DNA from: Sorangium cellulosum
GTDB taxonomy: Bacteria; Myxococcota_A; Polyangia; Polyangiales; Polyangiaceae
Direction: 5' to 3'
Assembly: GCF_001589285.1 (NCBI RefSeq)
Contig: NZ_JEMA01000832.1
Coordinates: forward strand, 1-64,000
DNA length: 64,000 nucleotides
The position numbers and the translations under genes are program-made. The stretch's first letter is position 1, and the number at the start of each line of letters is the position of its first letter. The notes under the pieces are model-generated. The model searched no databases. It had not been told where the DNA came from and saw only the letters and a list, made by a program, of their open reading frames with translations. This document shows, one piece after another, positions 20,084 to 21,074 of the stretch.

Positions 20084-20128
20084 GTTGGTGCGACAACGTG
20101 AGGCATGTCCGCGGCGCGCGGACGCCGG

Positions 20129-20683
20129 TCAGAAGCAGCGACGCATGCACCGCGTGTACTTGTCGGAGCACCCTTTTTCGCACACGGCGGACTTGCAGTC
20201 CTGCCGGCACTTGTTCCAGCTCGTCTGGCACGCCGCGCTGCACGCCGAGCCCGGCGGCGCCGCGTCCTCGACGTCGTTCAGCGGCGCGTCGGGGGCCCCC
20301 GCGTCCGCCTCTTCGGCGGGCGCAGGCGCGTCGGCGTTCAGGAGCATGGGCGGCGGCGCGAGCGCGCTCGTCGGCTCCGGCACGGCGGGCGCTCGGCTGC
20401 TGGGCGGGCTCCACTCGCCTTCGTCGAAGTCGCTGGCGCGGCTGAGCTGCCTCTCCCGGAGCGTCGCGTACTCCACGCGGTCGCGCGTCTGGCCGAACGT
20501 GTAGAACTGGAGCCACTCGTCCCAGCACGCGCGCCGCAGCGTCGGCTTGATCTCGGGCATCGAGTCGAGCGCCATGCAGTGCTCGAAGCGTACGTCCCCC
20601 TCGTACACCGCGTTGATGCTCGCGCCGCACGCGGTCGCGGTCACCGAGGCGGCGGCCAGGAAGAGGAGGGGGCTGAACCGCAC
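20129..20683 (-). CDS. Secreted Cys-rich small protein (possible lipoprotein)
   Basis: 184 residues with a hydrophobic leader MRFSPLLFLAAASVTATAC and a possible lipid attachment at that Cys, though the -3 residue is Ala, not Leu or Val. The middle is Pro/Ala/Asp-rich, and the C-terminal 40 residues carry eight cysteines in a CxxxC/CxxxxC pattern (from SACSAACQTSWNKCRQDC onward). The pattern resembles a small disulfide-knotted tail. I recognise no family. It lies downstream of the 39-aa basic protein gene in the divergent direction. Confidence 0.65.
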   Translation of the reverse strand: MRFSPLLFLAAASVTATACGASINAVYEGDVRFEHCMALDSMPEIKPTLRRACWDEWLQFYTFGQTRDRVEYATLRERQLSRASDFDEGEWSPPSSRAPAVPEPTSALAPPPMLLNADAPAPAEEADAGAPDAPLNDVEDAAPPGSACSAACQTSWNKCRQDCKSAVCEKGCSDKYTRCMRRCF

Positions 20684-20782
20684 GAGATACCAACACCGAT
20701 AGCAGAAAAGCTCGCCCCTGGTGCCGTACCCGGCTCACCGTCGCCGGAACCTGCCCGAGCGCCCGGCCGAGATGCTCTCCGG

Positions 20783-20811
20783 TTGAATTTTGCCCTGCGA
20801 TGCCGTAGGTT
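20783..20811 (+). promoter_or_regulatory. Sigma-70-type promoter of the 39-aa basic protein gene
   Basis: The sequence has TTGAAT (20783-20788), a 17-base spacer and TAGGTT (20806-20811), close to a vegetative promoter. The start of transcription would be near 20818, giving a leader of about 60 bases to the ATG. Confidence 0.55.
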
Positions 20812-20878
20812 GCCGCCCCTTCGCACCGACAGCGGCGGCACGACGCCACCGCGTCGGGCGCCTCAACGGAGCCTGTCC

Positions 20879-20998
20879 ATGTTCCTCATGCTGTCGAAAG
20901 GTCCCCGAAAGACCACGCGCTCCAAGTCGAAGCGCCACCGGTCCAAGCTGAAGGCGAAGAACCGCAACCGGCGGAATCGCATCTACCAGCGCACGTGA
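20879..20998 (+). CDS. 39-residue very basic protein, possibly ribosome-associated
   Basis: The ORF MFLMLSKGPRK... is 39 residues long with 16 Lys or Arg, few acidic residues and many Asn. ATG at 20879 has GGAG seven bases upstream, and a TTGAAT-17-TAGGTT promoter lies about 70 bases before. Such size and charge recall small ribosomal proteins (bL34-like) and the AURKAIP1/COX24 family, but no motif match is certain. It is followed by a partly self-complementary G+C-rich stretch that may end the transcript. Its location near mglA reflects convergence, not an operon. Confidence 0.6.
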   Translation: MFLMLSKGPRKTTRSKSKRHRSKLKAKNRNRRNRIYQRT

Positions 20999-21074
20999 GC
21001 GCAGCGGCGAGCGCGGGCGAGTCCTCGGCCTCGCTCGCCTCGCCGCCGTTCGTTTCCGGGGCTGCCCCTTGAAG

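Follow-up and report, generated by a model that had tools for sequence, protein, structure and literature searches.

A conserved 39-residue basic protein of Polyangiales-type myxobacteria, a candidate lineage-specific ribosomal protein

Does a strongly basic reading frame of 39 codons, standing by itself in the genome of Sorangium cellulosum, encode a protein and, if so, what might that protein do? The frame lies within a window of 64,000 nucleotides (the whole stretch of DNA that was analysed) from an 11.9-Mb draft genome, and a preliminary description had taken it for a real gene that annotators would skip. The signals listed there, TTGAAT-17-TAGGTT, a leader of about 60 bases, GGAG, the ATG and 39 codons with 16 Lys or Arg, are all at the positions claimed (Table 1). 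We conclude that the frame is very likely a real, conserved and undescribed gene and, judged by its sequence and that of its relatives, it is a separately transcribed, single-copy gene. A search of the window for the exact promoter string finds it a single time, and none of 100 shuffles contains it. A generic sigma-70 scan of the promoter region did not call it, because the -10 hexamer matches that of E. coli poorly. The elements TTGA...TA...T are aligned at the same place in six Sorangium loci and in Polyangium- and Minicystis-type relatives, and TTGNNN-N16-18-TANNNT is found upstream of the gene in 24 of 102 relatives, against 1.4 expected. The stem-loop that follows the stop codon has a folding energy of -42.2 kcal/mol (z = -3.95 against shuffles), and the sequence GCGAGCG...CGCTCGC is seen downstream of the gene in Sorangium relatives as well; this structure could end both transcripts, that of the small basic gene and that of the convergent mglA. 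Rfam and tRNA scans of the window gave no match.

Table 1. Layout of the small basic gene in the window
Feature	Position	Strand	Basis
Promoter: -35 TTGAAT (20783-20788), 17-base spacer, -10 TAGGTT (20806-20811)	20783..20811	+	Sequence and alignment
5' leader, about 60 nt	20818..20878	+	Transcription start inferred from the distance between -10 and ATG; leader kept within the genus
Shine-Dalgarno GGAG, 7 bases before ATG	20868..20871	+	Sequence; motif also in relatives
Gene for the 39-aa basic protein MFLMLSKGPRKTTRSKSKRHRSKLKAKNRNRRNRIYQRT; ATG 20879, stop TGA 20996-20998	20879..20998	+	Conservation, dN/dS
Stable stem-loop right after the stop, in the intergenic space before the convergent mglA; probable terminator, no T tract	20996..21052	+	Folding energy

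The frame of this strain stays open well beyond the ATG in the upstream direction (297 aa, 20105-20998, in the list of open reading frames), and it is therefore only comparison that proves the start. The aligned relatives start at the same ATG, and an in-frame stop lies at most 20 codons upstream of it in 46 of the 102 distinct relatives. Moreover, a Shine-Dalgarno-like motif is found at the right distance in 77 of the 102, against 9.4 expected from the same DNA. Third codon positions are the most variable in the alignment, and the median dN/dS of 0.22 over 296 pairs, which are not independent of one another, indicates purifying selection. Frame, start and amino acids are thus kept over synonymous change in relatives, as is characteristic of a protein-coding sequence. 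Loss of the frame in relatives would have spoken against the gene according to the preliminary description; the frame is kept, and the proposal of a real but skipped gene is strongly supported by the conserved frame, start, Shine-Dalgarno motif and promoter, by the single copy and by purifying selection.

Of 59 related genomes searched at the protein level, 55 have a relative, with identities down to 40-60% in other families of the order; as an internal control, no non-orthologous second match in these genomes was better than E ~0.08. We then searched Myxococcota genomes at least 90% complete, most of them metagenome assemblies, with a profile of 82 sequences and with one extended by outlying groups. 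At E <= 0.001, the family was found in 127 of the 132 genomes of the window's order (both this number and that of the 5 lacking the family come from a hand count of rows), nearly always in one copy, and in 194 of the 371 genomes of Myxococcota overall. Near-universal, single-copy presence in its clade is a property of a bacterial ribosomal protein, and the 127 of 132 genomes, with one match per genome, display it. A homologue is present in 27 of 30 genomes of family f66; two copies of the f66-type protein were seen in each of G419 and G434, maybe from mixed bins or by duplication. The weakest members, with E between 1e-4 and 1e-3 (for example, those of f43, f44 and f47), are less certain. The profile search covered Myxococcota, and beyond the phylum the family was sought by a pattern scan alone, with a degenerate DNA pattern that requires M-[FY]-[LI] and a CG codon for arginine. 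Over 84,980 species the pattern gave 84 matching stretches and, among those listed, the record titles read Myxococcota, Myxococcales, Polyangiaceae and similar, Deltaproteobacteria, Proteobacteria and uncultured bacterium. Eighty of the 84 loci were inspected, and all 80 encode clean members of 34-50 aa starting with M-[FY]-[LI]. A tblastn search of plasmids with one outlying f66 member gave no match. On these sequence comparisons, the family is nearly universal in its order, the Polyangiales-type myxobacteria, and several further Myxococcota lineages have it in a diverged form.

Among 82 diverse members R14, R19, K27 and R31 are invariant, and A22 and K23 are nearly so. The core R-x-[KR]-[STC]-x-R-x-x-A-K-L-K-A-K-x-[RK] is common to the window's class and the outlying groups; outside the class the N-terminus differs (MKKGTNNRNRNKSSRYRAKLKQKNRRARKRVSPDGRKYHR; MARTQAPRKRNKTARHRAKLKAKHTKQ...; MKKAKPLPHRNRGKSSRHRAKLKAKHRRVRARRSRGERKTYR). 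Compared with the main profile by hhalign, the outlying groups reach 96.7% and 95.2%, and their scores are 25-27 bits with the true profile, whereas none of 40 column-shuffled profiles gives more than about 3 bits. The profile-profile scores, together with the shuffled-profile control, therefore support homology and not a mere likeness of composition.

The genes around this conserved frame are not conserved with it. Within the window it is a solitary gene, flanked by a divergent lipoprotein-like frame and an alanine racemase gene on one side and by the convergent mglA/mglB on the other. The convergent neighbour, which we take to be mglA from its P-loop and from what is generally known of the family, had no Pfam match at 1e-5. 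Other lineages have different genes next to the small basic one: a gene for a PPDK regulator (PF03618), one that is QueD-like, or RNase G-like and PilZ genes (RNase G and QueD were named by eye), and in f66 the order is constant: pyrE (named by eye), acyl-CoA dehydrogenase, the small basic gene, pyrF and tgt. In three loci (L119, L127 and L107) the RNase G/PilZ and mglA neighbourhoods occur together, which links the lineages. No ribosomal-protein gene adjoins the small gene in the loci examined. Since there is no constant partner, a role specific to one operon, as a leader peptide or an Mgl accessory protein, is unlikely; a leader peptide for mglA or any other gene can be discarded, because mglA is convergent and the neighbours vary. 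That neighbours change while the gene stays is as for a stand-alone housekeeping protein.

What, then, does the protein look like? With 7 Lys and 9 Arg, no Asp or Glu and a pI of about 12, it stands out among the 224 ATG-started frames of 30-60 aa in the window. Apart from the frame itself (and its internal Met start), only two reach at least 40% Lys plus Arg; both are Arg-rich with no lysine, and look like probable reading-frame artefacts of GC-rich DNA. AlphaFold predicts an extended arm (residues 1-15) and a single, confident helix (residues 16-36; pLDDT 84), and for the diverged f66 form also a single helix, at the lower confidence of 71. Several of the conserved residues are 3-5 positions apart on the predicted helix, so that one helical face would be conserved. 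The helix carries Lys or Arg on most faces, as well as the conserved Ala22, and hardly any hydrophobic residues (L24 and I35). Without a hydrophobic face the helix is expected neither to act as a membrane peptide nor to form a folded core, and the scarcity of hydrophobic residues in the predicted helix speaks for RNA over membrane as the partner. A cationic antimicrobial or toxin-like peptide was also considered and rejected, for want of a hydrophobic helix face and because the gene is near-universal and single-copy. A Foldseek search of the model against the PDB found nothing similar, which is unsurprising when the query is a single helix.

The combination of an arm with a basic helix is the look of bS22, bL37, bTHX and other small ribosomal proteins that are specific to a lineage. 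Because the 39-residue protein shares this look, and is near-universal, single-copy and under its own promoter as such proteins are, we take it to be ribosomal, and our analysis makes a stand-alone, lineage-specific, rRNA-binding protein of a new family its probable, though by no means assured, identity. Binding to RNA is suggested by the composition, the pattern of conservation and the predicted helix; the further step, to rRNA as the target and to membership of the ribosome, is less certain. In that case the extended basic N-terminus and the Lys/Arg/Ala-rich helix would occupy an rRNA groove or pocket and stabilise the fold of the rRNA, a part played in other phyla by bS22, bL37 and bTHX; the site would differ from that of bS22. 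Whether the family further represents a new ribosomal protein of Myxococcota, at an rRNA site free of the small proteins described in bacteria and beside bS22 in some lineages, we regard as evenly poised. Neither codon usage nor the structure search lent support to the ribosomal assignment. In four genomes, the codon usage of the gene falls between that of ribosomal-protein genes and the background, a comparison of 39 codons with only 6-7 genes of the ribosomal-protein region per genome; in one of the four it differs from the background (P 0.02), and in three it fits ribosomal-protein usage poorly (P 0.016-0.055). In the S10 operon region of the four genomes (L205-L208), the conserved order was followed over about six genes, which by size and order are tuf, rpsJ, rplC, rplD, rplW and rplB.

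The preliminary description had also proposed that the product is an undescribed small ribosomal or nucleic-acid-binding protein. Undescribed it is, in that neither single proteins nor profiles matched any family in Pfam, NCBIfam, PHROGs or the PDB sequences. Among PDB chains of at least 20 residues, including bL37, bL38, eL41, bL34 and bL36, there was no match up to E = 10, and among the papers searched there was none on the protein, nor any structural or proteomic study of polyangial ribosomes. The binding role fits all that was observed, and the preliminary interpretation as a whole is partly supported. The known proteins which the family most recalls are small as well. Like it, bL37 is small, basic, helical and limited to one bacterial lineage, being confined to actinobacteria in the case of the mycobacterial protein (PMC5876184); the difference is that the 39-residue family has the longer helix, and that no PDB chain matches its profile. 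Thx, or bTHX (PF17070), is also a very small, basic, stand-alone ribosomal protein of patchy distribution, but it is a different sequence family; the 39-residue protein does not match its profile, and no genome of the order has PF17070 over cut-off. Identity with bTHX is rejected, as that family is missing from the genome. The sole bTHX over cut-off among the 371 Myxococcota genomes (G308:C284:16678-16755) was perhaps acquired by transfer. The eukaryotic and archaeal eL41, a single helix of about 25 aa, is likewise one basic helix, and bound to rRNA, but is shorter, lacks the extended N-terminus and shows no sequence relation in PDB sequence searches.

Basic composition alone equally fits a nucleoid or an mRNA-binding protein. 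A small nucleoid-associated or general nucleic-acid-binding protein (a DNA or mRNA chaperone), with its basic helix coating DNA or RNA, would account for the 16 Lys or Arg of 39 residues, the lack of acidic residues, the pI of 12 and the single basic helix predicted. We nevertheless find this a rather unlikely reading, even if the foremost of the alternatives, because the strongly position-specific conservation of R14, R19, A22, K23, K27 and R31 and the nearly constant length of 34-50 aa exceed the needs of a coat protein; the protein is also without the AKP-type repeats of histone-H1-like proteins and absent from Pfam and NCBIfam. Still less probable is a ribosome-associated but non-permanent factor of assembly, hibernation or stress, acting on rRNA from a regulated promoter of its own. 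The conserved promoter and leader of this stand-alone gene, outside any operon, are in keeping with such a factor, but near-universality and a single copy are equally expected of a structural component, and searches of the Pfam/NCBIfam type found no hibernation-factor domain.

It is very improbable that the protein itself belongs to the bS22/mS38 (COX24-type) ribosomal proteins or, as their displaced equivalent, occupies the h27/h44/h45 pocket. The bS22 family (of actinobacteria, Bacteroidota and Borrelia; COX24_C, PF08213; mitochondrial mS38) is of the same size class and composition, being 28-33 aa long, extremely basic and mainly helical, and the Borrelia protein, too, was unannotated until it appeared in a ribosome structure. 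Both Borrelia proteins, bS22 (61% Lys/Arg) and bL38, were unannotated small ribosomal proteins, and bS22 is expected by the authors in further bacteria (PMC10618245). PF08213 does not pass its cut-off in any genome of the order, where the 39-residue protein is present (a contrast drawn from few independent lineages), and it was this absence of bS22, and of bTHX, from the order that first suggested that the protein fills the bS22 pocket. However, there is no sequence or profile similarity: the 39-residue protein does not match PF08213, hhalign to bS22 gives 6-7%, and, scored with the small-protein profile, bS22 sequences stay under 0 bits. PF08213 is over cut-off in 59 of the 371 Myxococcota genomes, all outside the window's order, and is nearly universal in f61-f67; its pattern (G348-G433, families f51-f68) is one of lineage-level loss or gain within the phylum. 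Genomes of f66 (for example, G402-G405, G409 and G413-G422) carry both bS22 and a homologue of the 39-residue protein, which speaks against the 16S h27/h44/h45 pocket. Displacement of bS22 was for that reason rejected as the main reading; a ribosomal 39-residue protein would probably bind elsewhere than bS22. A chance frame, a leader peptide or a conserved RNA or DNA element read as protein, which the long open frame in a GC-rich genome might have suggested, is already refuted at the level of sequence, by variation mostly at third positions, by the median dN/dS, by a start and Shine-Dalgarno motif kept across families, and by the lack of an Rfam family at the locus and of a constant downstream gene to lead.

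What is new is a gene near-universal in its order yet absent from the libraries searched. In Borrelia, annotation had overlooked small basic ribosomal proteins such as bS22 and bL38, which first came to light in cryo-EM maps; here, comparative sequence alone yields a candidate, across much of one phylum, together with its promoter, start site and invariant residues. Should the protein turn out not to be ribosomal, there would still be a near-universal gene of an order outside those libraries. If the ribosomal assignment is true, an extra component would be added to the ribosome of the Myxococcota, a phylum of predatory and social bacteria whose genomes include some of the largest in bacteria, and the family would help in reading unassigned densities in maps of Myxococcota ribosomes.
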